A DNA stretch of 53,169 bases from Clostridiaceae bacterium (GTDB lineage Bacteria; Bacillota; Clostridia; Oscillospirales; Acutalibacteraceae), in NCBI GenBank assembly GCA_016287385.1, contig JAEEWM010000025.1, positions 1 to 53,169 of the forward strand. The letters run 5' to 3'. The notes below the pieces were generated by a model, which was not told the DNA's origin, made no database searches, and saw nothing but the letters and a program-made list of their open reading frames with translations. Positions 2,510 through 33,755 of the stretch are shown here, piece by piece (position 1 is the first letter of the stretch; each line of letters opens with the position of its first letter). The position numbers and the translations under genes are program-made.

Positions 2510-2535
2510 CGTTCCGGGGCTTTTGCCCCGGAACG
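2510..2535 (+). terminator. Perfect hairpin after the first hydrolase gene
   Basis: An 11-bp perfect inverted repeat (CGTTCCGGGGC / GCCCCGGAACG) with a TTTT loop lies 16 bases past the stop codon. It has no U-tract after it, so it may be a weak terminator, a processing site or a 3'-end stabiliser inside an operon. Confidence 0.5.
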
Positions 2536-2567
2536 GTTCCCCGTACTATATATATGGAGGTATACAG

Positions 2568-3677
2568 ATGAAAAAAATTCTGACAATTTTTCTCACGGCT
2601 TCATTTGTTCTGTCAGTGATCCTCACGGCGACGTTTTCCGTCACTGCCGATGCGCGTACAGCCGTATGTACGGTGGCGCTCTCGGAGCAGAATGCCGGCA
2701 CGGATGATTATTTCGTCGCGGCGGACGTCACCTTTACGAGCGACGCGGAGTTTACCGCGGGTATATTCACGGTGGAAGCGGCAGGGTTTAAGATTGACGG
2801 ATGTACCGCGGGCGAATGCACAGGCGGCGAAGCGCCGGAAATATACGTTTCACCCGAAAAAAGCATGGTTTTATTCGCCGGTTTCAGCGAGAGCACGGAA
2901 AATGATATAAGATCGTATACAAAAGTCACGCTTTCTCTTAAACTGGTTTTGGGAGACGGCGCACAGCCGTCCTCCGGTATAACCGTCAGCGTTAAGAATA
3001 TAAGCATATCCAACGTTGATGAGGAAAAATATACCGTTGCCGACGCTCAGGCGACGCTTACCGCTCAGCACATACACACCCCCGCCGACGAATGGTCGAG
3101 CGACGCTGAAAACCATTGGCACGTATGCACCTCCTGTCAGGAAAAAGTTGACGAGGCGAAGCACACCTTTGATGACGGCGCGGTAACGCCGCCCACCTGC
3201 ACAGCCGGCGGATATACCACCTACACCTGCACGGTTTGCGGCTACAGCTATAAGAGCAACGAGGTTCCCGTTGCCGCGCACAACGTAGGCGAGTGGATAA
3301 CCGACGCAAACGGACATCACCGCCACTGCGCGGACTGCGACCAGGACGTTGACGCGGGCGAGCACACCTACGAATGGGTAGTAACCAAAGAAGCGACAGC
3401 CGAGGAAAACGGACTGCGCGAGGAAATATGCTCGGTTTGCGGATACAAATCGGGCAACAGCGAGGATATAATCTACTCGCAGCACAAGCCCGGCGATATC
3501 AACGGCGACGGCTCGCTTAACAATAAAGACTTAACGCGTCTTTTCCAGTACCTTTCCGACTGGGACGTTGAAGTAAACGAAGCGGCGCTTGACGTAAACG
3601 GCGACGGCAGCGTCAACAACAAGGACTTAACACGGCTTTTCCAGTATCTCTCCGATTGGGATGTCGAGATATACTGA
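2568..3677 (+). CDS. Small secreted cohesin-like plus dockerin adaptor protein
   Basis: 369 aa. The ATG at 2568 is chosen because GGAGG sits 7 bases upstream and a signal peptide (MKKILTIFLTASFVLSVILT, cut near the Ala at ~29) follows directly; an earlier in-frame ATG at 2523 would put non-signal residues in front. Residues ~31-165 form a beta-rich domain with a cohesin/CBM-like pattern (YFVAADVTFTSDAEFTAGIF, then a late VTLSLKLVL strand). Residues ~166-300 are Cys/His repeats with HWHVCTSC, YTCTVCGY, HRHCADC and ICSVCGY motifs. Residues ~307-369 are a type I dockerin with two almost identical halves, each with a DxNGDGS loop and NNKDLTRLFQYLSDWDVE. If the first domain is a true cohesin, the protein would be an adaptor scaffoldin. 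The cohesin call is tentative; the dockerin call is firm. Confidence 0.85.
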   Translation: MKKILTIFLTASFVLSVILTATFSVTADARTAVCTVALSEQNAGTDDYFVAADVTFTSDAEFTAGIFTVEAAGFKIDGCTAGECTGGEAPEIYVSPEKSMVLFAGFSESTENDIRSYTKVTLSLKLVLGDGAQPSSGITVSVKNISISNVDEEKYTVADAQATLTAQHIHTPADEWSSDAENHWHVCTSCQEKVDEAKHTFDDGAVTPPTCTAGGYTTYTCTVCGYSYKSNEVPVAAHNVGEWITDANGHHRHCADCDQDVDAGEHTYEWVVTKEATAEENGLREEICSVCGYKSGNSEDIIYSQHKPGDINGDGSLNNKDLTRLFQYLSDWDVEVNEAALDVNGDGSVNNKDLTRLFQYLSDWDVEIY

Positions 3678-3712: not shown

Positions 3713-6700
3713 ATGAAAAAGAGCTCCAGAAGAATTCTTGCCGTTATACTGGCGGTCGGTATGCTTGCCTCTTTGTTCACTCTGCCGATGACGGTCAGCG
3801 CGAACGGCGAACCCCTTAAGTTCGGAAGCGACGGCAAGTTCAAAATCGTCATTTTTTCCGACGTTCAGGATCAATTCCCCGTTCATCAGCGGGTAATTAA
3901 CGTAATGAAACAGGCAATCGCCCGTGAAAACCCCGATCTTATCGTTTATCTCGGCGATATTACCGAGCAAAACATTAAAGAGCCCGAGGTTGATTACAGG
4001 CGCACGGTCGAGCAGATATTCTCTCCCGCCGTGGAAGCCGGCGTACCTTACGCGATAGTATTCGGTAATCACGACGATCAAAGCTATTACAGCGGCCAGC
4101 GCACCGATAAGGCGGCTATGCTTTCTGTAATACAGTCGCTCGGCGACTGCCGCACGGTGGACGCCGACCCCTCGCTTTACGGCACGGGTACCTGCAAGAT
4201 TCCGGTTTACTCTTCGGACGGCAGCAGTATTGCGTTTGACCTCTTTATGGTCGACTCAAACACCTACCAGAACCCGACCGACGGCGGCAGCGGATACGAT
4301 AACCCCCACGCCGATCAGCTTGAGTGGCTTGCCGCAAACAAGGATGCCGGCGTAAACTCTTTCGTATTCCAGCATATTCCGATGCCTGAGACCTTCAATC
4401 TTTTTAAGGAAGACGAGAACGGCTCAAAAAGCTACGGCGGCAAAAAATACGCTTTAGCGTTAAACGAAAACGCGACCGGCAGCGCGGGCGAATTTCCGCA
4501 CCCCTGCCCCGCGGACTGCAATTTCGGCGAGTTCACCACTTTAAGGGATATGGGCGGCGTGCTCGGCGTATTTACGGGCCACGACCACTTAAACGACTTC
4601 ACCGGCGTATACGACGGACTCAGAATGACCGCCGTTCCCGGTATGACCTATTATAACTACGGCAAAGAAGAAGTAAGAGGTTACGGCGTTATCGAGCTTG
4701 ACGAAAACGATATCGAAAATTACGATTATCACTCGGTCAAGTTCTCTACGCTCGATGCCGAAGCCGGCGAAACCGCGGAGACCACCTACGCCGATTACGA
4801 CCTCGTTACCTACGCCGATCTGCGTAAAGACGGCAACCCGCTGCCCGAGACCGATTACAACATCCACGGCAGCAACACCTTTACTTATGCCGGCACCTCG
4901 CCGACTCATTCGGCGATATTCAAATTCCGTTGGACCGCGGGCGCGGACAACGAGGGCTTCCAGTTCTCGTTTGACGAGGGCGAAAACGGCAATATCGCAT
5001 ATCCCTTCGGCGTTTGGATAAAGAAGCCGAATCAGGGCAGCGCCGGCTCTTACGGCGCGTGGCACCTGCGCCCCAACCAGGCGGACCGTCTCGTTAATAT
5101 GAATACCGCGGTAAAGAAGGGCGACGTTTATAATATCGAGCTCGGCAAGCTCAAAATTCTTACCGGCGAGCCTCAGCACGTGGGTGAATACTATCTTTAC
5201 TTAAAGGTAAACGGCGTTCTTATTCAGGAAGCTTATTCAAACGCCGGCGCCGACGGTCAGTTTATGTCCGGCAACGCGCTTTGCCAGATGGAAAACAAGA
5301 TTCGTTTCGGCGACTGGTCGTCATCGGATAACAACAACAGGATTTCCGCGTACGATTTTGAAAGCTTTGCGCCTTACGATGTAATCGAATACGAAGACCT
5401 GCTCGATACCGGCGACAACCACCTCGCGGCGGAAGGAACCACCCTTACGGCGCAGAACAATCTCTTCCACTATGAAGCGACCTCCCCGTCACATTCGGCG
5501 ATATACAAATTACGCTGGACAGCCGGCGACGATATCTATTTTCAGCTTCATCCCGGTATCTACGGCAGCAGTAATAACTTCGCCTACCGTATAAACGGCG
5601 AAAACTTCAATCAGCGCAACCCGAGCGCGGACGTGCCGGTAGGATATACGATAAGCGAGGGCGACTCGGTCAATATCGAGATCGGCAGACTCCTCGTTGC
5701 CGACGGCGACAACGCCGGCAAGTATTACACATACTTTAAGGCGGGCGGTAAGGTAATTTTTGAAAAATACGTATCGGCGGACGATACAAACACCGCCTCC
5801 TACCTCGGCGACAGTATCCAGCTTAATCTGCGCGACGCCGCGCACTACTGCGAGATCAGTCCGTACATAGAGGAAATACCCGAAGAACCCGCCGACGCGC
5901 TCTATTATAAATACGACGAGATAGAATACGGCGATCTTCGCGAAAACGGCAATTATCTCGCGAGCGAGACCGTAATGAGCGGCGGTAAGACCTTCACCTA
6001 TAACAAAACTTCATCTACCGGCTCCGCGATACTCAAATACCGCTGGACCGCCGTTGAGGGCTCCAAATTCCAGCTTTCCTTTGACAAGGCGGGTTCCGGT
6101 GTAAACTATATGTTCGGCGTTCAGCTCTACGCGCCGGGCAGTGAGGGGCACGAGAACAGCTCAATAAGACTCCGCCCCGGTCTTGACGACAACAACGCGT
6201 GGGCGGACCTCGCCGAAAATATCGAGGACGGCAGAAGCTACGATATCGAGTTTGCGCGGCTTAAGGTTAAAAACGGCGAAAACGCGGGCAAGTATTACGT
6301 TTATTTCAAAATGGACGGCGAGCTTGTTTCCGAAAGCTACGTCGGAGCGGATGTTGTTGACGGCAAGGGCAACTACAAGTCAAATCCCGGAAACGCGGAC
6401 TGTAAGCTTTCAAACGAGATTTACCTCACCTTCTGGGGCGCTTCCGGCAACAAGATAAGTGCGACGGCGGTTCCCGAGACCTACGAACCTTACGACGAAG
6501 TTACATATTATGATCTGCTGTTGAACGGCAGTCCGCTTTCGGCGGCGAAAACGCCGCTGAACGGCAATCCGAAGTTTGCCTACAACGCCACTTCTCCCAC
6601 TCATTCCGTTGTGCTCAAATACCGCTGGACGGCGGGCACCTGCGCCGAAGGCAAACCGCATTACGTATTCTACTTTGATAATTGGTCGGGCGGCGCCTAT

Positions 6701-9634
6701 CCGTTCTGTCTTGCGGTAAAATCACCGGGCTATTCGGGCCTCGGCGCCGCGGCGGGTGAGAACGGCGCGTGGCATATCGATCCGTCCAAGTCAGATCATA
6801 TCGTTCAGATGACCGAGCCCATAGTAGTCGGTCAGGACTATGATATCGAACACGGCCGTATTAAGGTGGCGACCGGTCCGAACAAGAATAAATATTACGT
6901 TTACCTTAAAGTAAACGGCGAGCTTATATTCGGTTATTACTACGACGGTGTACATGAAGACGGCACCTACGGCGGTTCTAATCAGGCGTTTGATTCCAAA
7001 TATCTGCGCTTTACGGACGGTACGGCGGATAACTACATCTCCGCGACGCCGGTCGTCGAAACGTATGAGGATTACGATGAGATTTATTATTCCGACCTGA
7101 AGAAAAACGGTCAGCCGCTTTCCGCCGGCGGCACGAATATGAGCGGCGGCACCGTATTGACCTATGACCGCAAATCTCCGACCGGCTCGGCGATTTTAAG
7201 ATACCGCTGGACAGTCGGCGACGTCTCAAAATTCCAGTTGTCGTTTGAAAAGACCTCAAACAGCGCCATGGCGTATATGTTCGGCGCGTGGCTTTCAGAA
7301 CCGGGTGCCGAAAGCGGCTTCCCGAACGGCAGAATGTGGCTGCGCCCCGGTTACGGTCCGCAGGCGGGCTTTGCCGAAGCCATACAGCCGGGCTCGACTC
7401 ACGACGTTGAGTTTGCGCGGCTTAAAGTCAGCGGCGGGTCACGAAAGGGCAAATACTACGTTTATATCAAGATAGACGGCGAGCTCATAGCCGAAGATTA
7501 CGTGGCGGCGGGCGATGTGGACGCAAACCTCGGCTACATCTCAAATCCGAACAGTACGGTGTGCAGTATGACCTCGAACGAAATATTCTTAGCGTTCTGG
7601 GGCAGTAACGGCAACATGATAAGCGCCATTCCGGTCGAAGAGACATATGAGGATTACGACGTGATAGAATACGCCGATCTTAGTAAGGACGGCATCCCCG
7701 TTCCGGCGGACGGCAGAACGATGAGCGGCGGCACAGTATTCACCTATAACCGCACTTCGCCTACCGGCTCGGCAATATTCAAGTATCGCTGGAAGGTCGG
7801 CTCTGTCGCCAAATTCCAGATGTCGTTTGAAAAGACCGCCGATAACACCATGGCGTATATGTTCGGAGCATGGCTTTCAGAACCCGGCGCCGAGACGGGC
7901 TACGATAACGGCAGAATGTGGTTAAGACCTGCTTACGGTCCGCAGGCGGGCTTTGCTTCCGCGCTCGCGGCGGGCGCGTCATATAACGTTGAGTTTGCGC
8001 GCCTTAAAGTAAAGAACGGTCCCAACAAGGGCAAATACTACGTCTATATTAAGATAGACGACGAACTTATAGCCGAAGATTACGTGGCGGCGGACGTTGT
8101 AGACGAAAATCTCAATTATTATTCCAAACCGGGCGAAGTCGGGTGCAGTATGACCTCGAACGAGATATTCTTCGCGTTCTGGGGCAGCGAGGGCAACGCC
8201 ATCGGCGCTTACAAGGAATCAGCGGTCGGCGGGCACGCCGGCACAAGGGGCGATTTTGACGAAAACGGAACTATCAACGCGCTTGACTTTACCGCTCTTA
8301 TCAACCGCCTCTTCGGAGTTATAGGCGATATCGAATTACCCGAGGGAATCGCCGATTTCAACAACAACGGCACCGAGGATATCGATGACCTTATAGCTGT
8401 TAAAAAGTATATCGCGCCGGTCAACACCTATGAGAAAACGGGCGACCTTACGGTTGGTACGCAGGAGCACCTTTTAGAGGATGCAACCAAAACCGCGGAA
8501 TATATAGCCGACGCTTCGGGAACGCTCGGCGTGACCGCGTATCGGCTCAGCGTGCCTATTCATCAGCTTTATTATGCCACCGAAACAAACGGCGTAAAAG
8601 TTAAAGCGGACAATATGAACGCGCTTAAAGAGCTGGTCGCGGCGCTGAAGAGTAAGGGTATAACCGAAATTCTCTACGTTACCGATTCGTTTATTCTGCC
8701 TTACGGTTACAGCGACCCCCAAAAGACCCATAACAAGACCGTTCCGGATCCGGCAACGGATAAAGATAATTATCTTGCGTGGCTCAACGTGAACGCAAAC
8801 GCGTTCGCCGCGCTTGCCGCAGAAGTTCCGGAAATCAAGTTCTTCGAGCCGTTCAACGAGATAAACGTTACGGGCTCAAGACTTGAAACCTACGGCATCG
8901 GCTGGAACGCAACCGCCGAACAGCAGGCGGCGCACAGATTTACCGTAAGCGAAAAAGCCGGTATAATGGCTGACCTTTGCTGGTATGTGTCAAAGGCGGT
9001 CAAGTCGGTTGATGCGAAGAATCAGGTAACAACGCCTTCGATCAGTCTGTCGGGCAGCCAGGTAGTCGAAAAAGATTTTCTTGACGCTCTGTACAAGGCT
9101 GTTGAATCAGGCAATTATCCCACCGGTCAGGCGCTTGCCGATAAGAGAACAGACAGCTACTTTACTATTATCAACATCCACCTGTATCCGGAGTATACCG
9201 ACAAGAGCTCGCAGATCGAGACCAATGCAAACAATTTTGCGGCGAGCATTAACGCGGCATATGATGTGATCAAAGCCCATAAAGACGGCGGCAGCCGCGT
9301 ATGGCTCACCGAAACCGGCGTCTCTTCGTATCACGGCGACGGCGCTCCCAGAAATGAGGAAACCGCGGCTGCGATATTCAATACGACGCTCGGCAAAATA
9401 GATAACGACCTTACTTATATAGACACCGTAATAACCTATAAGCTTGCGGATATCTCATCGGATAACGGAGCAAGCCCGGTGGAAGCGGGTTACGGTCTGT
9501 TCTATTCCGGCGATGACCTCGACTACGATCCTTATACCGCAAAGCCGATAGCAAAAACCGTTTACAGCTTTACGCACGGCGGCTCTGCCGATTATTCGGA
9601 GCTTGACGCGCTCGCTTCACGCTACGGCGGATAA
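3713..9634 (+). CDS. Secreted metallophosphoesterase / six-module / dockerin / glycoside hydrolase fusion
   Basis: 1973 aa; ATG at 3713 after AAAGGAGAAA. A signal peptide of ~31 residues leads into a calcineurin-like metallophosphoesterase (~40-345) with FSDVQ, YLGDIT, FGNHDD, FQHIP and TGHDH motifs; the usual DxH of the first motif is DVQ. Six tandem beta-rich modules follow (~359-1502). Each starts with a YxxYDxxxYxDL box, has a xxSxxxSAxxKxRW core, and most carry a GKYYVYxKxDGEL strand. A dockerin-like region (~1511-1573; DFDENGTINALDF and DFNNNGTEDIDDL) precedes a ~400-residue clan-A-like hydrolase with E1716 (EPFNEIN) and E1867 (WLTETG) as the likely catalytic pair. Module function is unknown; glycan binding is a guess from the beta-strand-rich pattern. 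The 35-base gap from the upstream adaptor gene suggests co-transcription. Substrate inferred: a phosphate-bearing polysaccharide. Confidence 0.88.
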   Translation: MKKSSRRILAVILAVGMLASLFTLPMTVSANGEPLKFGSDGKFKIVIFSDVQDQFPVHQRVINVMKQAIARENPDLIVYLGDITEQNIKEPEVDYRRTVEQIFSPAVEAGVPYAIVFGNHDDQSYYSGQRTDKAAMLSVIQSLGDCRTVDADPSLYGTGTCKIPVYSSDGSSIAFDLFMVDSNTYQNPTDGGSGYDNPHADQLEWLAANKDAGVNSFVFQHIPMPETFNLFKEDENGSKSYGGKKYALALNENATGSAGEFPHPCPADCNFGEFTTLRDMGGVLGVFTGHDHLNDFTGVYDGLRMTAVPGMTYYNYGKEEVRGYGVIELDENDIENYDYHSVKFSTLDAEAGETAETTYADYDLVTYADLRKDGNPLPETDYNIHGSNTFTYAGTSPTHSAIFKFRWTAGADNEGFQFSFDEGENGNIAYPFGVWIKKPNQGSAGSYGAWHLRPNQADRLVNMNTAVKKGDVYNIELGKLKILTGEPQHVGEYYLYLKVNGVLIQEAYSNAGADGQFMSGNALCQMENKIRFGDWSSSDNNNRISAYDFESFAPYDVIEYEDLLDTGDNHLAAEGTTLTAQNNLFHYEATSPSHSAIYKLRWTAGDDIYFQLHPGIYGSSNNFAYRINGENFNQRNPSADVPVGYTISEGDSVNIEIGRLLVADGDNAGKYYTYFKAGGKVIFEKYVSADDTNTASYLGDSIQLNLRDAAHYCEISPYIEEIPEEPADALYYKYDEIEYGDLRENGNYLASETVMSGGKTFTYNKTSSTGSAILKYRWTAVEGSKFQLSFDKAGSGVNYMFGVQLYAPGSEGHENSSIRLRPGLDDNNAWADLAENIEDGRSYDIEFARLKVKNGENAGKYYVYFKMDGELVSESYVGADVVDGKGNYKSNPGNADCKLSNEIYLTFWGASGNKISATAVPETYEPYDEVTYYDLLLNGSPLSAAKTPLNGNPKFAYNATSPTHSVVLKYRWTAGTCAEGKPHYVFYFDNWSGGAYPFCLAVKSPGYSGLGAAAGENGAWHIDPSKSDHIVQMTEPIVVGQDYDIEHGRIKVATGPNKNKYYVYLKVNGELIFGYYYDGVHEDGTYGGSNQAFDSKYLRFTDGTADNYISATPVVETYEDYDEIYYSDLKKNGQPLSAGGTNMSGGTVLTYDRKSPTGSAILRYRWTVGDVSKFQLSFEKTSNSAMAYMFGAWLSEPGAESGFPNGRMWLRPGYGPQAGFAEAIQPGSTHDVEFARLKVSGGSRKGKYYVYIKIDGELIAEDYVAAGDVDANLGYISNPNSTVCSMTSNEIFLAFWGSNGNMISAIPVEETYEDYDVIEYADLSKDGIPVPADGRTMSGGTVFTYNRTSPTGSAIFKYRWKVGSVAKFQMSFEKTADNTMAYMFGAWLSEPGAETGYDNGRMWLRPAYGPQAGFASALAAGASYNVEFARLKVKNGPNKGKYYVYIKIDDELIAEDYVAADVVDENLNYYSKPGEVGCSMTSNEIFFAFWGSEGNAIGAYKESAVGGHAGTRGDFDENGTINALDFTALINRLFGVIGDIELPEGIADFNNNGTEDIDDLIAVKKYIAPVNTYEKTGDLTVGTQEHLLEDATKTAEYIADASGTLGVTAYRLSVPIHQLYYATETNGVKVKADNMNALKELVAALKSKGITEILYVTDSFILPYGYSDPQKTHNKTVPDPATDKDNYLAWLNVNANAFAALAAEVPEIKFFEPFNEINVTGSRLETYGIGWNATAEQQAAHRFTVSEKAGIMADLCWYVSKAVKSVDAKNQVTTPSISLSGSQVVEKDFLDALYKAVESGNYPTGQALADKRTDSYFTIINIHLYPEYTDKSSQIETNANNFAASINAAYDVIKAHKDGGSRVWLTETGVSSYHGDGAPRNEETAAAIFNTTLGKIDNDLTYIDTVITYKLADISSDNGASPVEAGYGLFYSGDDLDYDPYTAKPIAKTVYSFTHGGSADYSELDALASRYGG
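4788..8219 (+). repeat. Six tandem copies of a ~190-codon module
   Basis: Approximate copy starts are 4788, 5365, 5905, 6477, 7060 and 7642. Copies 5 and 6 are very alike (PTGSAI, YMFGAWLSEPGAE, NGRMWLRP), and copy 4 is close to the partial module at bases 2-520. Copy 6 and the module at 530-1078 share long near-identical DNA runs, for example around 600 and 7740. More diverged copies occur in the protein at 9779-15169. Confidence 0.85.
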
Positions 9635-9778: not shown

Positions 9779-12700
9779 ATGTTAAAACCGAAAAAAATAC
9801 GAATGACAGGAGCGTTACTTGCCGTTTTACTGCTGTTTGCAACTTTGGCAATTCCTCTGCACAGCGCCGCCGCGTACAACGCGGACGGTGCGGTTCCGGT
9901 CGTGCGCGGCAGTTACTACGACCTGCCCGAAACGGTCGAAAGCTACGTTTCGTCGGGTAAAACGATTGAATTTGACCTGAATATACTGATTTCGGATACC
10001 GACGTTTGCAAGCTCGGGCTTTATGACGGCGGCACGTTTGTTTCAAACGAATTTCTCCTTAAAGACGGCGCGGACGAACTGAGTTTGACGACAAAGCCGC
10101 TTAAAGACGGTTGGTATCACTATATTATTTCGCTTGCCACCGTTCCTCACTCATCCGGGCAGGAAAACAACCCTGTTACGAGATTCCGCGCAAGAAGCAC
10201 CTTCCCTTCGGGCACACTTATAAACAATATCAGCGTAGGCGTGGACGTTCGGGCTCTTCCCGAGGCGTTTACCGAAGACTTTGATACCGTTACGCTCGCA
10301 GACCTCGGAATTGCGGGCACCGATTACAAAACCGCCGTTTCAAGCGGCACTTACACCTACAAGGGCAAATCCGAGACGAAATCCGCCGTTGTTAAATTCG
10401 GCTGGGCGGCAAATGTCACATCGGAAATCGACTGGAAGCTTGCCCTCGACACCTACTGGAACGCAAACTGTATGGTCTGGTTCAGACCGGACGCCATATA
10501 CTTCTGTCCGGGCGAGGGGCAGTACAGGGAGCTGTACGCCAAGCTCGACCCCGTGACGGAAGGCAGACACGAAGTCGAATTCGGCAGACTTCGCGTTACG
10601 GCGGGTCCGAATTACGGAAAGGATTATGTGTTCTTCAAATTGGACGGAGAAATTAAAGTCGGTAAATACACGGATTACTATCAGACGGAGGGCGGATACG
10701 TATCTCACAGCGAGAAGCTTACGACTCCGTCTTACACCGTTTGCTTCGTAAACGACGGCGTGGCGAAGCAGGGCTTTTCCGGCTTTGCGAAGCCCGACGA
10801 ATACGTTACCGATATCGATTACGTTAATATCGGCGATATCGTTCCGGGCGGCGTGGTAAAGGATACGGTACACGACGGTCACCTCGGCTACACCTATCCC
10901 TTTGAATCCGCGTCGGCAACCAAATCCACCGTTGTTAAGTTCGTGCTTCAAACCGGGAAATTCGCGGAAGGAAACCTCGATGGCTCGGTTATGGTCGTCG
11001 ATATCGGCGGCAACTGCGGCTTCTGCCGTTCTTATATCTCTTCGGGCAACAAGAAGAGCATTATGTTCGGCTGGGAAATCGACGGCTGCAGCAGCGGCAC
11101 GAAGAGTTATAAATTCGAGGAGAACACATGGTACGCCTTCGAGCAGGGCAGACTGCGCGTGACCTCGGGCGCAAACAAGGGCAGGGACTACGTATATCTT
11201 AAAATAGACGGCGAAGTCGTAAGTTCTTTTTACGGCGAGCCCGGGTCAAGACCGCTTCTGGGCGGCGATATTTACGTTGAAGCCACGCAAAACTTCCGTA
11301 TAGTCGGCTATAACGAGGTACGCGCGAAGTATTACGTTGACGATGAGCTTCTTTACGACCGGCTCTCGCAAAAGGGCTTTCCCGCGAAACAGCCCGCCGA
11401 CCCCAAGAAGGACGGCAGTTATTTCGTTGGCTGGTACACTGCGAAAACCGGCGGCACACTGTTTGATTTTGCAAAGACAAAGCTTGACGGCAACATAAAT
11501 CTCTACGCGCGCTTTACCGATGAGACCGTAACGGCGACCTTCGACCCGGCAAACGGCGACGCTTCTTTCAGCGTGCCTTCGGGCAAAAACTGCCTTGTGA
11601 CCGCGCCGGCGACCCCCGCGTATACAGACGGCGTGTACGAGTACGTTTTCGCCGGCTGGAAGAACGAAACCACCGGCAAAATATTCGATTTTGCAAGCGA
11701 CCGGATAAGCGAGGACACCTCGTTTACCGCGCAATATAAGGAAAAAGAATACTTTGTAAGCTACTACGCAAACGGAAAGCTCGTCAAAGAGGTTCCGTTT
11801 GTAATGAGTGATCCCACGGTCGAGGGCAAAGAGCCCGCCGTTCCCGCCGTGCCGAACGCCACCGGCGTATGGGAGGCGCACAGTGTAAGCGCGCTTACCG
11901 GCAATATGACGGTAAACGCCGTTTATACCGTAACGCCGCCGTCCGCGGCGACCGGCATAAATCTTCAAACCTATTCGGGCGGCAGGATTTATCTTAACAC
12001 CGATACCGTACACGATTTTCTTTCGACCGATACGCAGAAGCAGTCGGATTTTGTCAGAGAATTCTGCGCTTCGCCGCACGAGTATCAGGACCACCAGAAC
12101 ACCGCGTTCAAGTGGAGCGACAGCGGCAAAAACAGCTCTTATACCGTCTACTTTGCCGATAACAAGAGCTTTAAGAACGCGTACATCGTCACCGCGAACA
12201 AGGCTTCGCTTATAAACGAAGCGGGCATATTTGTTCCCGGCAAGACATATTACTGGTTCGTTTGCGGCAACACTACCGGCAAATGCAGCGCGGTAGATAA
12301 CTTCACGGTCGTCAATACGCCGATACGTTATATTACCGCGGGCAACGTTATAAATATGCGAGACCTCGGCGGTCAGGTAAACGGCGCCGGCGACAGGGTA
12401 AAATACGAACTCGTTTACCGCGGCGCCGCGCTCGACGAGTACACCTCCCACGTTGACGATACCGCCCGCGGCGTATTCAGCTATCTCGGTATCAATTCCG
12501 AAATAGAGCTTCGCGGCGGCATGAACCACGCATATACCGGTTGGGACGAAAACAACCCGAACGTAAACTACATAAAGGGTGCGATGTATCAGGAGATACT
12601 TTCGCTTGACGCCGAACAGAAAGAGCAGTACAGGTCCACCTTCCACGCAATGGCGGACGAAAGCAACTATCCGTTCTATTTCCACTGCTCCGCCGGTGCT

Positions 12701-15169
12701 GACAGAACCGGTACGTTCGCTTACCTGCTTTACGGACTGCTTGGCGTTTCGTACGATGATATCCGTCCCGAATATGAGCTTACCTCTTTCAGCGCGATAG
12801 GCATGAGACCTGCTGACCGTTACAGTCAGGGCTTTGCGATTGATACGACCAACGCTCAGATGATAGAGCAGTACAGCGGCGGTACGGGCGATCTGCAAAC
12901 GGCGGTATACAACTTCCTTACGAATTATGTGGGCGTAAGCGCCGCCGACCTTGAAGCCATTAAGGATATAATGCTCGAAAAAGGCGCGACGCCCAACGAT
13001 AAACCGTACACCCTTACCGTGGACGTTCTCGGTAAGAAGTACACCTATCAGGCGTTTGACGGCATTTACTTCATGCCCGAGAAGCCGCAGGCGATTGGCA
13101 AGATATTCAACGGTTTTTATAACGGCAGCAAGAAATATGACGGTTACGCGAAAAGCGACCTTAATTTAGTTGCAAAATTCAGCGATATGCAGTTTGAGCC
13201 TTACGATACCATTACCCTTAAAGATTTAGGGTTTAAGGAAAGTAAAGTGCTTAACCGCACCAACACGGTCTGCACCTACGAAAAAACCGCCGAAAGCGGC
13301 GGAAGACTGCTTCAGTTCGGCTTAGAGCCGGTAGGCGATATGAACGGCGGCGACGGACCGCAGTTATCGTTTACCAACGACTGGTCAAAAAACAGCTTCG
13401 CGAGGGTATGGTTCCAGACCAACACGAATTCCTGCGCCTATTACAGCGGCGTTCTCGGCTCGGGTCCGGATATTATGAAAATGCTGTTACTCGAAGCGGG
13501 CAGGCAGTACGATATACAGTTTGCCATACGCGTTATGAAGAATAAGGGCTACGAGGGCAAAAAGGTCTTTGAGGTCACCGTAAACGGCGAATTGCTGGTT
13601 CAGTACATCGGCTGTAACGCGGACCTTAGCGACAACCTGATTTACTTCCACGGCGGCACCGGCTCGGCGTATCTCATAAACAAGCCGGTATATAAGACCG
13701 TAAGATTTTATGACGGCGACAAGCTTATAGACAGCCGTACGGTAGAGCGTTGCGGTCTGCTTCCCGAAATAAAAGAACCGGCGGCTAAAGGCGGTGTTCC
13801 CTTCGCCGGCTGGTATACCGAAAAGACCGGCGGAAAGCTCTGGGATGAAAACGAAGACGTCGTATACAGCGATATGAACCTCTACGCGCGCTTTGCCGAC
13901 GTAAGAGTCATTACCGCGTACGTCGACGGCAAGAAACTAACCTATCGTGTTCAGGTCGGCAAGACGCTCGACGAGCTTCCGAAGCCCAAGAAGGCGGGAC
14001 ACGTCTTTACCGGCTGGACGGTGAACGGTCAGCCTTTCACCGGCAAGGTCACTTCAAAAATGGCGGTGACCGCCGCGTTTGAGGAGTACAGCTTCGATGA
14101 TTACGATGAACTCAGTCTGCGCGATATCGGAGTGACCGGCGACCTCGACTTTGCCGTTTTCGGCGACCGCCATACCAGAGGATACAACTATTATAAGGCG
14201 GCAAAAACCGGAGGCAGAGTATTTAAGGGAATTTATATTCCGAGCAATAATATGATGAACGGTCCGCAGGTCAGCTTCTCGACCAAGTGGGACGAAAACT
14301 ACTATTCAAAGCTCTACTTTACCAAATACGATATGCTTTACGTTTATTCAAGCGGTATCGACGGCGGTCTGCCGACCTTAAAGCTCGATACCGAGCTTGC
14401 CGGCGGAAAGGAGTATCCGTTCGAGATAGGCGTGCGCGTGCTCAACAACAAGGGTTATAAGGGCGTTAAGGTGCTCACCGTATATGTAAACGGCGAACTG
14501 ATTTTTGAGGAATTTGATAACGGCACCAACCTTGAAGGAGACACGGTATTCATCCAGGGCATGCCGAACACCGGCGTTTTCCGCAACGTGGATATATACA
14601 AGACCGTATCGTTCTACGACGGCGACAGATTGCTTTCTTCACAGAAGCTTCTGCGCGGCTCGACCGCAAGGTCGATAGGCAAACTTGCCGACAAGGGCGA
14701 CCGGCTCTTTATGGGCTGGTATACCGAATTCGGCGTAGAATGGGATTTCGCCACCGACGGCATTTACCTTGACACCGTGCTTAAAGCCAAATATCAGAAG
14801 CGCACATATCCCGTTTTGCTGATGGTGGACGGCGTGCTTTATAAGCGCCTTAACATCACCGCGGGCGATCGCGCCGATATATTCGATATACCGGAAAAGG
14901 ACGGCTATGAGTTTGATAAGTGGCTGAGTGAGGACGGTGCCGAGTATGATATGCAAACGCCGGTCAACGCGCCGGTCACACTGCTCGCAAGCTTTAAGCC
15001 GGCGGCGGTGAAGCCCGCGATAGACGAAAACGGCGTCGGGATTAAAGACGGCGGCGACGCCGCGGACAAAACGGATATTAAATACATACTGTTCGGCGCG
15101 GGCGGACTGCTGCTTATTGCCGCGGAAGTTTTCGTAATAATTCTCAAAAAGCGTTCCGAAAAACAGTAA
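9779..15169 (+). CDS. Giant surface protein with InlB-like repeats, shared modules and a tyrosine-phosphatase-like domain
   Basis: 1796 aa; ATG at 9779 after AAGGGAGA. A signal peptide (~1-31) is followed by an N-terminal beta domain and two diverged copies of the region's shared module (~165-330, ~341-515). InlB/Listeria-Bacteroides-type repeats with GWYTxKTGG or FAGW motifs follow (~515-720), then a likely Fn3-type domain (~720-855). Next is a phosphatase of the PTP/DSP fold (~855-1070) with NMRDLGG and the P-loop HCSAGADRTG, catalytic Cys970. Two more shared modules (~1140-1310, ~1439-1605) alternate with further InlB-like repeats. A hydrophobic segment (~1768-1789) followed by KKRSEKQ anchors the C-terminus in the membrane; no LPXTG motif is seen. 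The phosphatase would face outside, so its target is probably extracellular phosphate (glycan or phospholipid head group) rather than phosphotyrosine; this is inference. Confidence 0.85.
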   Translation: MLKPKKIRMTGALLAVLLLFATLAIPLHSAAAYNADGAVPVVRGSYYDLPETVESYVSSGKTIEFDLNILISDTDVCKLGLYDGGTFVSNEFLLKDGADELSLTTKPLKDGWYHYIISLATVPHSSGQENNPVTRFRARSTFPSGTLINNISVGVDVRALPEAFTEDFDTVTLADLGIAGTDYKTAVSSGTYTYKGKSETKSAVVKFGWAANVTSEIDWKLALDTYWNANCMVWFRPDAIYFCPGEGQYRELYAKLDPVTEGRHEVEFGRLRVTAGPNYGKDYVFFKLDGEIKVGKYTDYYQTEGGYVSHSEKLTTPSYTVCFVNDGVAKQGFSGFAKPDEYVTDIDYVNIGDIVPGGVVKDTVHDGHLGYTYPFESASATKSTVVKFVLQTGKFAEGNLDGSVMVVDIGGNCGFCRSYISSGNKKSIMFGWEIDGCSSGTKSYKFEENTWYAFEQGRLRVTSGANKGRDYVYLKIDGEVVSSFYGEPGSRPLLGGDIYVEATQNFRIVGYNEVRAKYYVDDELLYDRLSQKGFPAKQPADPKKDGSYFVGWYTAKTGGTLFDFAKTKLDGNINLYARFTDETVTATFDPANGDASFSVPSGKNCLVTAPATPAYTDGVYEYVFAGWKNETTGKIFDFASDRISEDTSFTAQYKEKEYFVSYYANGKLVKEVPFVMSDPTVEGKEPAVPAVPNATGVWEAHSVSALTGNMTVNAVYTVTPPSAATGINLQTYSGGRIYLNTDTVHDFLSTDTQKQSDFVREFCASPHEYQDHQNTAFKWSDSGKNSSYTVYFADNKSFKNAYIVTANKASLINEAGIFVPGKTYYWFVCGNTTGKCSAVDNFTVVNTPIRYITAGNVINMRDLGGQVNGAGDRVKYELVYRGAALDEYTSHVDDTARGVFSYLGINSEIELRGGMNHAYTGWDENNPNVNYIKGAMYQEILSLDAEQKEQYRSTFHAMADESNYPFYFHCSAGADRTGTFAYLLYGLLGVSYDDIRPEYELTSFSAIGMRPADRYSQGFAIDTTNAQMIEQYSGGTGDLQTAVYNFLTNYVGVSAADLEAIKDIMLEKGATPNDKPYTLTVDVLGKKYTYQAFDGIYFMPEKPQAIGKIFNGFYNGSKKYDGYAKSDLNLVAKFSDMQFEPYDTITLKDLGFKESKVLNRTNTVCTYEKTAESGGRLLQFGLEPVGDMNGGDGPQLSFTNDWSKNSFARVWFQTNTNSCAYYSGVLGSGPDIMKMLLLEAGRQYDIQFAIRVMKNKGYEGKKVFEVTVNGELLVQYIGCNADLSDNLIYFHGGTGSAYLINKPVYKTVRFYDGDKLIDSRTVERCGLLPEIKEPAAKGGVPFAGWYTEKTGGKLWDENEDVVYSDMNLYARFADVRVITAYVDGKKLTYRVQVGKTLDELPKPKKAGHVFTGWTVNGQPFTGKVTSKMAVTAAFEEYSFDDYDELSLRDIGVTGDLDFAVFGDRHTRGYNYYKAAKTGGRVFKGIYIPSNNMMNGPQVSFSTKWDENYYSKLYFTKYDMLYVYSSGIDGGLPTLKLDTELAGGKEYPFEIGVRVLNNKGYKGVKVLTVYVNGELIFEEFDNGTNLEGDTVFIQGMPNTGVFRNVDIYKTVSFYDGDRLLSSQKLLRGSTARSIGKLADKGDRLFMGWYTEFGVEWDFATDGIYLDTVLKAKYQKRTYPVLLMVDGVLYKRLNITAGDRADIFDIPEKDGYEFDKWLSEDGAEYDMQTPVNAPVTLLASFKPAAVKPAIDENGVGIKDGGDAADKTDIKYILFGAGGLLLIAAEVFVIILKKRSEKQ

Positions 15170-15346: not shown

Positions 15347-16294
15347 ATGGTACTGGGATTTGATATCGGGGGAACAAAATGCGCCGCGGTAACGGCAGAT
15401 GTGAGCGGCGATAACATCACCGTCACGGCAAAGGAAAAAATACCGACCGATTTGAAAATTAAACCGGAGGAAATGTTAGACCGGCTTATCGCTCTGGCGG
15501 ATAAGCTTTGCGCGGGCGAAGTCCCCGAACGCATAGGAATATCCTGCGGCGGGCCGCTTGATTCAAAAAAAGGTCTCATCCTTTCGCCGCCTAATCTTCC
15601 GGGCTGGGATAACGTGCCGGCGTCGGAAATCATAGGAGAACACTACGGCGTGCCGGTGCGCCTTCAAAACGACGCTAACGCCTGTGCCGTCGCCGAATGG
15701 AAATTCGGCGCGGGGCGCGGCTTTAACAATATCGTTTTTCTCACCTTCGGTACGGGGCTCGGCGCGGGACTTATTCTCGGCGGCAGGCTGTACGTCGGCG
15801 CAAACGACAACGCCGGCGAGGTAGGGCATATAAGACTTGAAAATTCGGGTCCCGTGGGGTACGGCAAGGCGGGCTCGTTCGAGGGCTTTTGCAGCGGCGG
15901 CGGTATAGCGCAGTCAGGGTACGCGCTTGCCCTCGAAAAATCGCGGCAGGGCGAAACGCCTTTGTACTATTCGCCCGGTATGAGTAAAGATGAAGTAACG
16001 GCTAAAAGTATCGCCGAAGCCGCCGAAAAGGGCGATAAAACCGCTCTTGAGGTTTACAGAATCTGCGGCGAGCACCTCGGGAAAGGACTTTCGGTTTTGA
16101 TAGACGTCTTAAATCCCGAGCGCATTATAATCGGCAGTATCTTTGCCAGGTCAAAAGACCTTTTGTGGAGCGCCGCGGCAAAAGTGATAGAAAAAGAGGC
16201 GTTAAAATGCAGCGCGCAATGCTGCGAGATTGTGCCGGCACAGCTCGGCGAGCACATAGGCGATTACGCGGCGGTTGCGACCGCCCTGCTTTAA
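15347..16294 (+). CDS. ROK-family sugar kinase, zinc-motif-less type
   Basis: 315 aa, cytoplasmic. It probably phosphorylates a hexose such as mannose, fructose or glucose with ATP. Residues 4-12 give the phosphate-binding loop GFDIGGTKC, ISCGGPL lies near 65, QNDANA carries the likely catalytic Asp109, and LTFGTGLGAG (132-141) is the second nucleotide-binding motif. The family Zn-binding CxCGxxGC signature expected after GEVGHI is absent; instead the sequence reads GYGKAGSFEGFCSG (171-184). First gene of a tight operon with the SIS isomerase (12-base gap). It starts at ATG 15347 after an A-rich stretch with AGGGA upstream. The upstream gap 15213-15346 is AT-rich with a TATTAT box at 15305 but no convincing -35. 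Substrate is not readable from the sequence. Confidence 0.88.
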   Translation: MVLGFDIGGTKCAAVTADVSGDNITVTAKEKIPTDLKIKPEEMLDRLIALADKLCAGEVPERIGISCGGPLDSKKGLILSPPNLPGWDNVPASEIIGEHYGVPVRLQNDANACAVAEWKFGAGRGFNNIVFLTFGTGLGAGLILGGRLYVGANDNAGEVGHIRLENSGPVGYGKAGSFEGFCSGGGIAQSGYALALEKSRQGETPLYYSPGMSKDEVTAKSIAEAAEKGDKTALEVYRICGEHLGKGLSVLIDVLNPERIIIGSIFARSKDLLWSAAAKVIEKEALKCSAQCCEIVPAQLGEHIGDYAAVATALL

Positions 16295-16306: not shown

Positions 16307-16927
16307 TTGAGTTTGTACGGACGACATGTATCTTTGATCGCGGCAAAGCCGGATATTGAAAGGGCGAAGGAAGCGATTATAAAAGCGTTTGAGACGGGCG
16401 GCAAGCTGCTGCTTTGCGGCAACGGCGGCTCCTGCGCCGACTGCGAGCATATCGTGGGCGAGCTTATGAAGGGCTTTATGCGCAAGAGGGAGCTGCCCGA
16501 GGAAAAGAAGCTTGAAATGATAAAAAACGCGGATTTTATTGACAGGGAGTGGCTCTGCCAGCTGCAAGGCGGTCTGCCTGCGATATCTCTGCCCTCGGCG
16601 GCGGCGCTTAACACCGCCTTCTGTAACGACGTAAATCCCGAGCTTATATATGCCCAGCAGCTTATGGGACTCGGCAAAAGCGGCGATGTTCTTTTATGTA
16701 TAAGCACATCGGGCAACTCAAAGAACGTATGCGCCGCGGCGACCGTGGGAAGGGCGCTCGGCATCACGGTCATAGGTCTTACCGGCAAAAGCGGCGGACG
16801 GCTTAAAGAAATAGCGGACATCTGTATTTGCGTGCCCGAAACCGAGACCTACAAGGTGCAGGAGCTTCATTTGCCGGTATATCATTATATCTGTGCCGAA
16901 GCCGAAAAATATTTTTTTGATGACTGA
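16307..16927 (+). CDS. SIS-domain sugar-phosphate isomerase (phosphoheptose-isomerase-like)
   Basis: 206 aa. The start is a TTG at 16307 behind AAGGAGAGAG; no better ATG is near. The SIS fold is shown by LLCGNGGSCADCEH (35-48), the phosphate-binding CISTSGNSKN (131-140) and VIGLTGKSGG (155-164). It resembles the GmhA/sedoheptulose-7-phosphate isomerase group, but an insert at ~60-90 and the catabolic operon suggest action on a hexose phosphate released by the mannosidase or kinase. Cytoplasmic. It lies 12 bases after the kinase and 23 bases before the GH38 gene. The SIS fold is certain; the exact substrate is open. Confidence 0.83.
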   Translation: MSLYGRHVSLIAAKPDIERAKEAIIKAFETGGKLLLCGNGGSCADCEHIVGELMKGFMRKRELPEEKKLEMIKNADFIDREWLCQLQGGLPAISLPSAAALNTAFCNDVNPELIYAQQLMGLGKSGDVLLCISTSGNSKNVCAAATVGRALGITVIGLTGKSGGRLKEIADICICVPETETYKVQELHLPVYHYICAEAEKYFFDD

Positions 16928-16950: not shown

Positions 16951-19900
16951 TTGGAATTTTATACTCGAAAAACCGTCGACAAGGTAAAAAGACTGTACGG
17001 TGAGTACAAAAAGTTTTTATACAGTAAGGTTTCACAGCTTCCCTGTGAGATATCCGAAATACCCGCGCCGGAGAATACTCCGCAGGCGCGTGCGCGCTTT
17101 TCGTCCGAAATGCCCGAAAGCGGCTGGCGCAAAGTAACCCCGGGCGACAGGTGGGGCGGCGAGTTTTGCTACGCCTGGATACGCTCGCAGTTTACCGTAA
17201 CAAAGGAGCTTGACGGAAAAGCGCTGTTTTTAATACCCGATACGGGTCTTGTGGAAGGTTTGCTGTTTCTCAACGGCAAGCCCTCCGGTATTTTTGATTT
17301 TTGCCCCGATATCCCGGGCGATTCACGGCTTCACGACGTTCAGCCGCTGACCTTTTGCGCAAAAGCGGGCGAGAGGTTTGATATCGCCGTCGAGTGCTAC
17401 GCGGGGCATAAAGTGCCCGGCACAAACCCCTATGATAACGGCGGGGTGACCGAATGGAGTCTTTATCCCGAAAACGTCGTTCACACGTTTAATTCCTTGG
17501 ACGTTGTTCTGCGTGACGTGGACGTTGCGGAATTTCTTATGCTTCACAGGACCGTAGCGCAGATAATAGACCTTTACAGGGAAGACAGCGGCACTCACGC
17601 GGCGGCGGTGAACGCCTTTTGCGAGATTTTCAAAATACTGCCGCTTCACCCCGGCGAAGTCGATTTTGATTTGAACAGCTCGCTTAAAAAAGCGAATGAG
17701 ATATTAAGGGGCGTAACGGACAGAAAAGGCGGCGGCGACGAATTCGGCTACGTCGGACTTGTCGGACACAGTCACCTCGATACCGCGTGGCTCTGGCCCG
17801 TCCGCGAGACGCTTCACAAAGCGGCGAGGACATTTTCCAACGCTTTAAGGATAATGGAGCGGTACCCCGATTATCACTATATTCAAAGCTCTGTGCTCTA
17901 CATTGACTGGATGAGGGAGCACTACCCCGATATTTACGAGGACATAAAAAAAAGAACCGCCGAGGGCAGATGGGAGCCGAACGGCGGCTCCTGGGTAGAA
18001 TTTGATAACAATATGCCTGCGGGCGAGTATATAATAAGGCAGTTTTTGCTCGGTCAGCGGTATACGCGGGAAAATCTCGGCTATACGGCGGACTGTTTCT
18101 GGCAGCCGGATACCTTCGGCTATTCCGCCGCCATGCCGCAGATACTTAAAAAATGCGGCATAAAGTATTTTCTTACCACCAAGCTTTCCTGGAACGAGGC
18201 AAACGTCTTTCCGCACGATTCGTTTATCTGGCGCGGGCTGGACGGCACGGAAATACTTACCCATTTCAACATCACACACGCGTGGCCGGACGTTAAAGAC
18301 ATTAAAAACGCGCTGTGCTGGATAAGACACCCCGAGGTTTCAAATATGAAGCTTTTGGCTTACGGCTACGGCGACGGCGGCGGCGGTCCGAGCTACGCGA
18401 TGCTCGAAAGTGAAAAAGCCGTCAAGGGTATGGCGGGTATGCCGGAGCTTGAAAGCACCACGGTAAGCGCGTTTATGAAGCGGCTTCAAAGCACGGCGAA
18501 AAATCTGCCGGTTTTTTCGGGCGAGCTGTATCTTGAACTGCACCGCGGCGCGCTTACGCAAATGCACGAAATAAAGCGCTCCAACCGCCTGCTCGAAAGG
18601 GCGATACACGATTACGAGTTTTTATCGGTAACAAGCGGCGGTTTCGACCGCGCTCTGCGCGATAAAACGCTTAAAACCCTGCTTACAAACCAGTTTCATG
18701 ATATACTGCCGGGAACCTGCATAGCCGACGCGCACGACGTCGCGATTTATGAAAACAAAACGGCGATAAAGGAAATAAGTGGCGCGGCGGCGCGTCTGTT
18801 TAACGGCGACGGCAGGACTGTCAGCGTATGCAATACCCTTTCGTTTGACCGCGGCGACCAGATAATAATCAAAAATAAAGATTTTATACCCGATAACCGT
18901 ATTGTTCAGCAATATACCGATGTTTACGGCGATAAATGCACCGCCGTTTCGGGGGTTACGCTTCCGCCTTTTTCGGTTTTGGAGCTTAAAGCCGGCGCGG
19001 CGAAGGCGGCGGAATGTCCTTTCAAGGTTGAGGGAGACCTGATTTCCACACCGTTTGCCGATATCGTTTTGAAAAACGGGCGTTTCGTCTCTTATAAAAC
19101 GAAGAGCGGCGCCGAGGCGGTATCTGACCCGGATATCCCGCTTAACACCCTTTATTTCGGCGAGGATATTCCCGGCGCGTGGGATAACTGGGATATAGAT
19201 TACGACCAGGCGTATAAAATGCGCCCCGTGGCGGAGTGCCTTTCAAGCGAGGTAATATCTGCGGGCGCGCTTCAGCTTCGCGTTCGCGTCAAATACGCGT
19301 TCGGCAGGTCGACGCTTACCGAGGATATAGTTTTCTATTCGGATACTCCGCGCATAGATTTCGAGGCGCTTGTCGACTGGAACGATCCTCACTCGCTCTT
19401 AAAGGTCGGCTTTAAGGTCAACGTCCTGTCCGACAAGGCGAGGTTTGAAACCCAGTTCGGCAACGTAAAAAGACCTACGCACGATAATTACCCGACCGAT
19501 AAAACGCAGTTTGAGGTATGCAACCACAAATGGACCGACCTTTCCGATACGCGTTTCGGCGCGGCGATACTCAACGACTGTAAGTACGGTATTTCGGTAG
19601 ACGGAAACGATATGCGGCTGACTCTGCACAAGGGCGGCTGCCGCCCCGACCCGCGAGGCGATAAAGGCGTTCATAGGTTTACCTATTCTCTGCTCGTTCA
19701 CGAAGCGGCGTTTTCCGCCGAATCGGTAATAAAGCCCGCCTATATGCTCAACTACCCCGCGCTTGTCTTTGAGGGGACCGCGGACTGTAAATACGGCGAG
19801 CCGCTTATCGCGGTTGACGCGGACAACGTAATAATAGAGGCGATAAAGCCCGCCGAGGATAAGGACGGCTTCATAGCCCGCGTTTACGAGGCGGAGGGAA

Positions 19901-20061
19901 CGCATACCCGCTGTAATCTTACTCTCGGCAAAGGATACGGCGCGGTTTTTGAGTCCGATATGCTCGAATACGAAGAAGAGCCGGTCGCCATAGGGCAAGA
20001 CCGCGTACCGCTCTCTTTCAAACCTTTTGAAATAAAAACCTTACGCATAACGCGTAAATAA
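16951..20061 (+). CDS. GH38 alpha-mannosidase
   Basis: 1036 aa with no signal peptide, so it acts in the cytoplasm on imported oligosaccharides. The TTG at 16951 is used, 8 bases after a GGGGG box. An N-terminal beta domain (~1-260) precedes the catalytic domain, which opens with GHSHLDTAWLWP (272-283; His275 and Asp277 are expected zinc ligands). The nucleophile Asp387 sits in QPDTFGYS, and NQFHDILPGT supplies the third conserved block. A long C-terminal beta-sandwich region completes the family layout. GH38 enzymes are Zn-dependent retaining alpha-mannosidases active on N-glycan or mannan fragments; which linkage is cut here cannot be read from the sequence. The second glycosidase follows 33 bases downstream. 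Confidence 0.93.
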   Translation: MEFYTRKTVDKVKRLYGEYKKFLYSKVSQLPCEISEIPAPENTPQARARFSSEMPESGWRKVTPGDRWGGEFCYAWIRSQFTVTKELDGKALFLIPDTGLVEGLLFLNGKPSGIFDFCPDIPGDSRLHDVQPLTFCAKAGERFDIAVECYAGHKVPGTNPYDNGGVTEWSLYPENVVHTFNSLDVVLRDVDVAEFLMLHRTVAQIIDLYREDSGTHAAAVNAFCEIFKILPLHPGEVDFDLNSSLKKANEILRGVTDRKGGGDEFGYVGLVGHSHLDTAWLWPVRETLHKAARTFSNALRIMERYPDYHYIQSSVLYIDWMREHYPDIYEDIKKRTAEGRWEPNGGSWVEFDNNMPAGEYIIRQFLLGQRYTRENLGYTADCFWQPDTFGYSAAMPQILKKCGIKYFLTTKLSWNEANVFPHDSFIWRGLDGTEILTHFNITHAWPDVKDIKNALCWIRHPEVSNMKLLAYGYGDGGGGPSYAMLESEKAVKGMAGMPELESTTVSAFMKRLQSTAKNLPVFSGELYLELHRGALTQMHEIKRSNRLLERAIHDYEFLSVTSGGFDRALRDKTLKTLLTNQFHDILPGTCIADAHDVAIYENKTAIKEISGAAARLFNGDGRTVSVCNTLSFDRGDQIIIKNKDFIPDNRIVQQYTDVYGDKCTAVSGVTLPPFSVLELKAGAAKAAECPFKVEGDLISTPFADIVLKNGRFVSYKTKSGAEAVSDPDIPLNTLYFGEDIPGAWDNWDIDYDQAYKMRPVAECLSSEVISAGALQLRVRVKYAFGRSTLTEDIVFYSDTPRIDFEALVDWNDPHSLLKVGFKVNVLSDKARFETQFGNVKRPTHDNYPTDKTQFEVCNHKWTDLSDTRFGAAILNDCKYGISVDGNDMRLTLHKGGCRPDPRGDKGVHRFTYSLLVHEAAFSAESVIKPAYMLNYPALVFEGTADCKYGEPLIAVDADNVIIEAIKPAEDKDGFIARVYEAEGTHTRCNLTLGKGYGAVFESDMLEYEEEPVAIGQDRVPLSFKPFEIKTLRITRK

Positions 20062-33364: not shown

Positions 33365-33755
33365 GGCGCTCACTCCACGACCGGAAAACGAGGATATAAA
33401 ATACTGAAAATAAATTTTTGATGTAAAAATATTCCATATTGTTTGCTTGAAAAATCACATTTGCCGCAAACGGGGGTATGTGCGATACTATTCTTTTTGA
33501 TTATGAAATTCGCCGTATATTTATTGACAAAATCGGGCATTTTATAATATTTTGCTGCCGAGAAGCGGAAAATCTCATATAATTCGTGAAAGGGAGAATT
33601 TTGCGCGATAGAACGTCTTAAAACCCAATTATGACAAAATTTTTATATTTTTTTACAGAATTCTTATAGCATTTCAAGTTGCACCTTTGGTAGAATAATA
33701 GCGGATACCCATCTTCGTTTTCCTACTTAATTTAAAAAATGAGGTGTATTTGATT

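Follow-up and report, generated by a model that had tools for sequence, protein, structure and literature searches.

The window analysed here, a contig of 53,169 nucleotides from a Clostridiaceae bacterium (contig C25 of genome G000), encodes a protein that combines a phosphoesterase and a glycoside hydrolase in one dockerin-bearing chain, and this raises the question of whether the fusion is genuine and on what material it could act. An initial annotation had described a secreted chain with metallophosphoesterase motifs, six copies of an unassigned module, an internal dockerin and a clan-A-like hydrolase, had regarded it as cellulosomal and had proposed a phosphate-bearing glycan as the substrate. 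In the open-licence literature, no paper was found for metallophosphoesterase plus dockerin plus glycoside hydrolase or for calcineurin-like phosphoesterase plus dockerin, and nothing judged related came up for purple acid phosphatase plus dockerin in the portions of text available. In the accessible part of PMC2721979, 'phosphatase' is a cloning reagent only; going by the accessible part of PMC5590126, a phosphatase-type domain may already be known among dockerin proteins.

Domain architecture of the fusion protein

The fusion gene is a single open reading frame with an ATG start, and its product leads from a signal-peptide-like N terminus via a metallophosphoesterase (MPE) domain, six repeats of about 190 residues (termed modules) and a dockerin to a clan-A-type hydrolase. 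The architecture originally described thus proved correct. The parts are as follows:

3713-9634, + strand: fusion gene, 1973 aa, one open frame
3713-3802, + strand: signal-peptide-like start, about aa 1-30, judged by eye from the hydrophobic N terminus
3803-4762, + strand: metallophosphoesterase domain, aa 31-350 (Pfam Metallophos, conserved ligand positions, model, PDB fold matches)
4790-5368, + strand: module 1 (this and modules 2 to 6 by repeat comparison)
5369-5905, + strand: module 2, the shortest with 179 aa
5906-6484, + strand: module 3
6485-7066, + strand: module 4
7067-7648, + strand: module 5, 69% identical to module 6
7649-8233, + strand: module 6, nearly all-beta in the model
8249-8413, + strand: type I dockerin (Pfam 36.5 bits, above the cut-off) with two Ca-loop-like segments recognized by eye
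8438-9631, + strand: clan-A-type hydrolase domain, aa 1576-1973, with E1716 and E1867 (Pfam, alignment, model, fold search)

Pfam placed Metallophos at aa 43-292 (4.8e-12), Dockerin_1 at aa 1513-1567 (1.5e-7) and, as a weak match, Cellulase at aa 1594-1884 (8.5e-7). The modules start at aa 360, 553, 732, 925, 1119 and 1313, the array spans aa 360 to 1507, and pairwise identity among the six ranges from 31 to 69%.

The metallophosphoesterase domain

Calcineurin-like metallophosphoesterases share the ligand motifs DxH, GDxx, GNH(D/E), H and GHxH. All of them are present in the fusion, the first one reading DxQ instead of the usual DxH, and by direct reading the ligand positions are D50, Q52, D82, N119, H120, H221, H290 and H292. 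The motifs that had been noticed initially stood up to an alignment of 19 MPEs, in which D82, N119, H120, H221, H290 and H292 are identical throughout and D50 is kept in all 18 sequences with a residue at this position (one row begins later). Position 52 is Q in 15 of 18 and H in three, and Q in all seven close members. With a Pfam Metallophos score of 47.1 bits versus a curated cut-off of 21.5 bits, the domain belongs to the calcineurin-like metallophosphoesterase superfamily.

A single-sequence search of the PDB yielded nothing useful for the MPE (best E 0.21). When a model of the MPE with module 1 (pLDDT 88.1) was used for a fold search, the PDB matches comprised Rv0805 (1.6e-11), purple acid phosphatases, Lmo2642 and the zebrafish dimetal phosphatase 2nxf, and also Mre11-type nucleases. 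The fusion MPE has the same fold and the same ligand positions as Rv0805, the purple acid phosphatases, Lmo2642 and 2nxf, but is 13-17% identical to them, carries DxQ in place of DxH and, unlike any of them, is fused to a dockerin-bearing hydrolase. Purple acid phosphatases have a tyrosine ligand in GDxxY. This tyrosine is absent from the window MPE, where the site reads GDITE, and the likeness to these enzymes is confined to fold and weak sequence similarity.

At a threshold of 1e-30, the MPE profile matched eight of 391 genomes of the class, the own genome included, and the other frames have 303-390 aa, with one of 690 aa. Distant relatives with 25-31% identity occur in viral contigs (L111-L117) and in human faecal phage records (H1-H4); a phage origin of the MPE was considered and discarded because identities of this order do not establish a close link.

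The hydrolase domain and its paralogues

Both catalytic glutamates attributed to the hydrolase are present and conserved: E1867 is found in all 21 aligned hydrolases, and E1716 together with the preceding asparagine in 20 of them, the exception being the remote row L093. The model of module 6, dockerin and hydrolase (pLDDT 87.6) displays the hallmarks of clan GH-A, i.e., an eight-strand barrel in which strand 4 ends with the Asn-Glu acid/base and strand 7 carries the nucleophile Glu. With strands counted by hand, the two residues lie after model strand 396-400 (the fourth) and within 550-556 (the seventh).

The top fold matches of this model are three PslG entries (best E 2.3e-14, 17% identity), followed by beta-glucosidases and other enzymes. 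From their names, we take the enzymes ranked after PslG to belong to GH1, GH5 and GH39, and the 50 matches listed presumably are GH-A members. PslG of Pseudomonas aeruginosa (PDB 5bx9, 9g17) is the closest fold, with a TM score by target of 0.55. When the hydrolase sequence profile was compared with the PDB, the best matches were beta-glucosidases (4.1e-5), and PslG, with an E value of 0.41, ranked below several of these. A single-sequence search ended at E 0.03 with a spike-related chain, which we regard as a chance hit. As regards GH5, Pfam Cellulase reached 33.3 versus 23.5 bits for the first member and matched 13 of 21 members at E<=0.01; as regards GH39, its model was absent from the Pfam matches of the family. 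The hydrolase is best described as having a predicted PslG-like fold and no firm family. To our knowledge, PslG carries no phosphoesterase, modules or dockerin. In the accessible part of the report in question, PslG is a retaining endo-beta-glucosidase that acts on a polymer of mannose, rhamnose and glucose (PMC11912335).

The window contains another hydrolase gene of the array type:

2-2491, + strand: upstream paralogue, C-terminal portion of a protein with modules, dockerin and hydrolase, its frame running off the start of the contig

The N-terminal part of this paralogue probably resides on contig C27 (806-aa open frame, C27 1-2418, minus strand), and on the strength of this placement the protein probably lacks an MPE. 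A hydrolase paralogue without MPE is also encoded in L097. Since such a paralogue exists, the hydrolase can do without an MPE. In a phylogenetic tree of 16 hydrolases, a stand-alone type of 416 aa is separated from the array type with support of 100/100. The array type includes a subgroup (100/99) made up of the window copy located upstream, the L097 copy without MPE, a copy from G034 contig C19 that is cut by the contig end and the MPE-bearing protein from G034 contig C18. As the latter falls into the other hydrolase clade, the MPE is attached to two hydrolase lineages, a pattern that would point to shuffling or repeated exchange. In the G034 C18 protein (2223-aa fusion), an additional Laminin_G_3 domain (L072 1465-2235) is inserted after the MPE and before the modules.

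At 1e-6, the hydrolase profile matched two of 394 genomes of the order and two of 348 genomes of the phylum, the own genome included in each case. The other match in the order is L093, which is remote and lacks the acid/base Glu, and that in the phylum is partial (2.7e-7). The module profile (1e-5) retrieved the own genome exclusively, both among the 394 and among the 348. These samples are even draws mostly without close relatives, and some genomes of the same genus carry the locus. In the genomes sampled, the full hydrolase was confined to this locus and its close relatives and the module to this locus alone, to which all 15 module matches of the own genome map, C27 included. Assignment of the module to a known family was attempted with 31 members and abandoned, since Pfam matches were sporadic, each confined to one member (best E 0.0071). 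A sequence comparison of the module with the PDB gave no match up to E 5. In both models the modules are nearly all-beta, and a lectin-like or carbohydrate-binding role may be envisaged for them.

Recurrence of the fusion and substitution rates of its parts

The fusion could in principle have been produced by an assembly join of two separate genes near base 4780. We therefore scanned genome contigs with the hydrolase profile and obtained 15 loci, all from metagenome-assembled genomes (MAGs), for which water buffalo, goat or horse is given wherever a source is named; domain maps were drawn for these 15 and for L093. Complete MPE-modules-dockerin-hydrolase frames, running from stop to stop, were found in L097 (1802 aa, five modules), L099 (2005 aa), L102 (2004 aa) and L104 (2223 aa), such that the complete fusion exists in five genomes, the one of the window and four other gut MAGs. 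This rules out the assembly join, and the fusion is genuine. In L100 (SUG1655), a module-dockerin-hydrolase protein (1653 aa) and an MPE (370 aa) are encoded by neighbouring genes. L107 encodes an MPE with one module followed by a hydrolase piece in a different frame; coverage is about 2, and the frame break is possibly an assembly fault. Six of the remaining nine loci hold array-type pieces truncated by a contig end (L096, L098, L101, L103, L105, L106) and three a stand-alone hydrolase (L108, L109, L110). Several of these loci coincide with loci of numbered genomes and were not counted twice (L100 is G026, L102 is G028, L107 is G024, and L096, L101, L103, L104 and L106 all belong to G034). 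The MPE/hydrolase pair is present in five of 37 genomes of the genus, the own genome included (G000, G024, G026, G028, G034), and the locus is thus patchily distributed.

Nonsynonymous and synonymous rates were compared for the individual parts, with the larger synonymous values being near saturation. Between the window and the G034 contigs, they amount to 0.11 and 1.21 for the MPE (dN/dS 0.09) and to 0.147 and 0.82 for the hydrolase (dN/dS 0.18); between G028 and L099, the values are 0.092 and 0.57 for the MPE (dN/dS 0.16) and 0.116 and 0.49 for the hydrolase (dN/dS 0.24). For the modules and the dockerin, nonsynonymous rates likewise stay well below synonymous ones.

The separate MPE of SUG1655 has a doubtful signal peptide. 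A stand-alone MPE encoded in L077 (7526-8635) has an N terminus resembling a decayed signal peptide and looks as if it might have split from a fused ancestor.

Dockerin, cohesins and surface anchoring

The dockerin of the fusion is of type I, as judged by its Pfam match and a duplicated Ca-binding loop. The own genome yielded 32 dockerin matches, 29 of them above the cut-off (two of 14 control genomes matched), and four cohesin matches, three above the cut-off (two of 14 control genomes matched, one above the cut-off). The three cohesins reside in single-cohesin proteins encoded on contig C2: one of 306 aa with a C-terminal membrane anchor, a cohesin-dockerin protein of 231 aa and one of 387 aa. 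Within the assembly, no multi-cohesin scaffoldin was found by Pfam. The view of the protein as cellulosomal is too strong and only partly borne out, and the mode of anchoring resembles simple docking at the surface more than it does a classical cellulosome. Like dockerin-bearing enzymes of cellulosome-forming Clostridia, the fusion is of the secreted type, repeat-linked and equipped with a dockerin exceeding the Pfam cut-off; unlike them, it unites phosphoesterase and glycosidase in one chain, and a scaffoldin with several cohesins was not found in its genome.

Direct reading shows the fusion dockerin to be clearly unlike the type that recurs in the rest of the genome, and its cohesin partner can therefore not be named from that type. 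The proteins encoded at 2523-3677 and 49942-52878 of the window have near-identical terminal dockerins, of the type they have in common with the 231-aa cohesin-dockerin protein. A further dockerin is located at about 56482 on contig C2 (L024), within an open frame of 8376 aa.

Genetic environment

The following genes accompany the fusion gene in the window:

2523-3677, + strand: small protein of 384 aa with a dockerin, located between both array genes (Pfam; same order in L103)
9779-15169, + strand: membrane-anchored protein with modules, List_Bact repeats and Y_phosphatase3 (12344-12979, HCSAGADRTG) (Pfam, module search, reading)
15347-16294, + strand: ROK sugar kinase (Pfam)
16307-16927, + strand: SIS phosphosugar isomerase, GmhA-like, under the gmhA cut-offs (profile matches)
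16951-20061, + strand: GH38 alpha-mannosidase (Pfam)
20095-23040, + strand: distant GH106-type protein (profile matches)
23062-24039, + strand: second MPE, MPE2 (Pfam, alignment)
24052-24771, + strand: PHP-domain protein (Pfam)

For none of the last four was a signal peptide seen by eye, which suggests that oligosaccharides still carrying part of their phosphate might be imported and finished inside the cell. Two large proteins, of 1750 aa (33744-38996) and 1722 aa (44738-49906), begin with a signal-peptide-like segment and had no Pfam match at E<=0.01.

The recurrent content of the locus comprises a stand-alone hydrolase paralogue, one or more array proteins, the tyrosine-phosphatase-type module protein, GH38 and the distant GH106. 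GH38 is located downstream in all six loci that extend that far (window, G028, G024, G026, L097, L099). ROK and SIS genes precede it in the window, G028, G026 and L099, and were not found before it in G024 or L097; ROK also occurs on both G034 contigs. MPE2 is present in three of four clusters of sufficient length (window, G024, G026; not in G028). The downstream protein contains Y_phosphatase3 in the window and five relatives (G028, L097, L099, G034 C26 and G034 C65), and all of these proteins have the HCSAGADRT motif as well as a membrane anchor at the C terminus. Its counterpart in SUG1655 (G026) has retained the anchor, with neither a Y_phosphatase3 match nor the tyrosine phosphatase motif.

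Contig C27, which we place to the left of C25 because the gene order is unbroken on one contig in G028, encodes an unassigned membrane-anchored protein of 900 aa, a second GH38, a beta-lactamase-fold protein, GH42, a GH127-like protein slightly below its cut-off and an ABC transporter (permease and binding protein by Pfam, second permease by similarity). Between the ends of C27 and C25, an overlap in the range of 15-399 bases was not found. In G028, the stand-alone hydrolase and frames resembling the 900-aa protein and the transporter adjoin the fusion (likened by order and size, one permease by similarity). An unassigned 900-aa membrane-anchored protein is encoded beside the stand-alone hydrolase in L090 (3663-6362), and L099, L102, L109 and L110 have frames of comparable length at this place.

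Possible function and substrate

Domain order, conserved residues, recurrence and locus make up the established part of the explanation that we put forward; activities, metal binding, substrate, docking partner and a binding role of the modules we infer. We give a probability of about one half to a bifunctional surface enzyme of a glycan-use locus, whose MPE and hydrolase both act on a phosphate-bearing alpha-mannose glycan, with docking via the dockerin and import of the fragments. The secreted, surface-tethered protein would remove or cleave phosphate mono- or diesters on the alpha-mannose-containing glycan with its N-terminal two-metal MPE, and the C-terminal retaining-type hydrolase would cut the chain thus exposed. 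The six modules could have spacing and binding roles, and docking to a cohesin would occur via the dockerin. Fragments would enter through the ABC transporter and be finished by GH38, MPE2, ROK kinase and SIS isomerase. The alpha-mannose part of the proposed substrate is deduced from the two GH38 proteins and the phosphate part from the fused MPE, the tyrosine-phosphatase-type protein and MPE2. The original suggestion of a phosphate-bearing glycan gains strength from the locus, which fits a phosphorylated alpha-mannoside, and a teichoic-type polymer, as also proposed there, is not favoured in a GH38/ROK/SIS context. Points that weigh against our explanation are the separate MPE and the missing tyrosine phosphatase motif in SUG1655, the variable presence of ROK, SIS and MPE2, the MPE-less paralogue, the divergent dockerin and the lack of overlap between C27 and C25.

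Other readings have to be weighed against this. The MPE might be a general phosphate scavenger or a phosphodiesterase for teichoic-acid-type material that merely shares a surface array with the glycosidase. Its nearest solved folds are indeed broad phosphatases and phosphodiesterases, and relatives without array exist in other families (e.g., 357 aa in G039, and seven further genomes of the class), but within GH38 loci the MPE is repeatedly found fused to this hydrolase or encoded next to it, and among the 23 window ORFs scanned there is no Pfam label specific for phosphate uptake; we consider this reading rather unlikely. It is also unlikely, in our view, that MPE and hydrolase each attack a different component of a composite material and that co-tethering instead of a shared substrate drove the fusion. 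The MPE-less paralogue would agree with that, as would the hydrolase of the other clade in the G034 C18 fusion, which is what domain shuffling would give; co-occurrence and conserved order in five genomes plus the split pair speak against it.

We see very little chance of a third reading, in which a phosphoinositol glycolipid or another lipid-linked glycan of this kind is the substrate and its head group is attacked by the MPE and the tyrosine-phosphatase-type protein. The Y_phosphatase3 family includes phosphoinositide phosphatases, and both Y_phosphatase3 and MPE are found on secreted-type proteins within a mannosidase locus, yet no gene covered by the Pfam scans received a lipase or ceramidase label. 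The protein with a beta-lactamase fold on C27 might be an esterase.

Going beyond the bifunctional enzyme on a phosphate-bearing alpha-mannose glycan, we tentatively suggest that the locus may be dedicated to phosphoglycan use in herbivore-gut Clostridia, that one chain couples dephosphorylation with backbone cleavage, and that hydrolase and module may found new families. If the proposed function is right, the fusion would make the use of phosphorylated mannose-containing glycans by gut Clostridia accessible through a single protein. It would also offer a clan-A hydrolase and a module, neither of them assigned to a family and both directly clonable and testable, and the locus also names the transporter and the cytoplasmic enzymes that accompany them.
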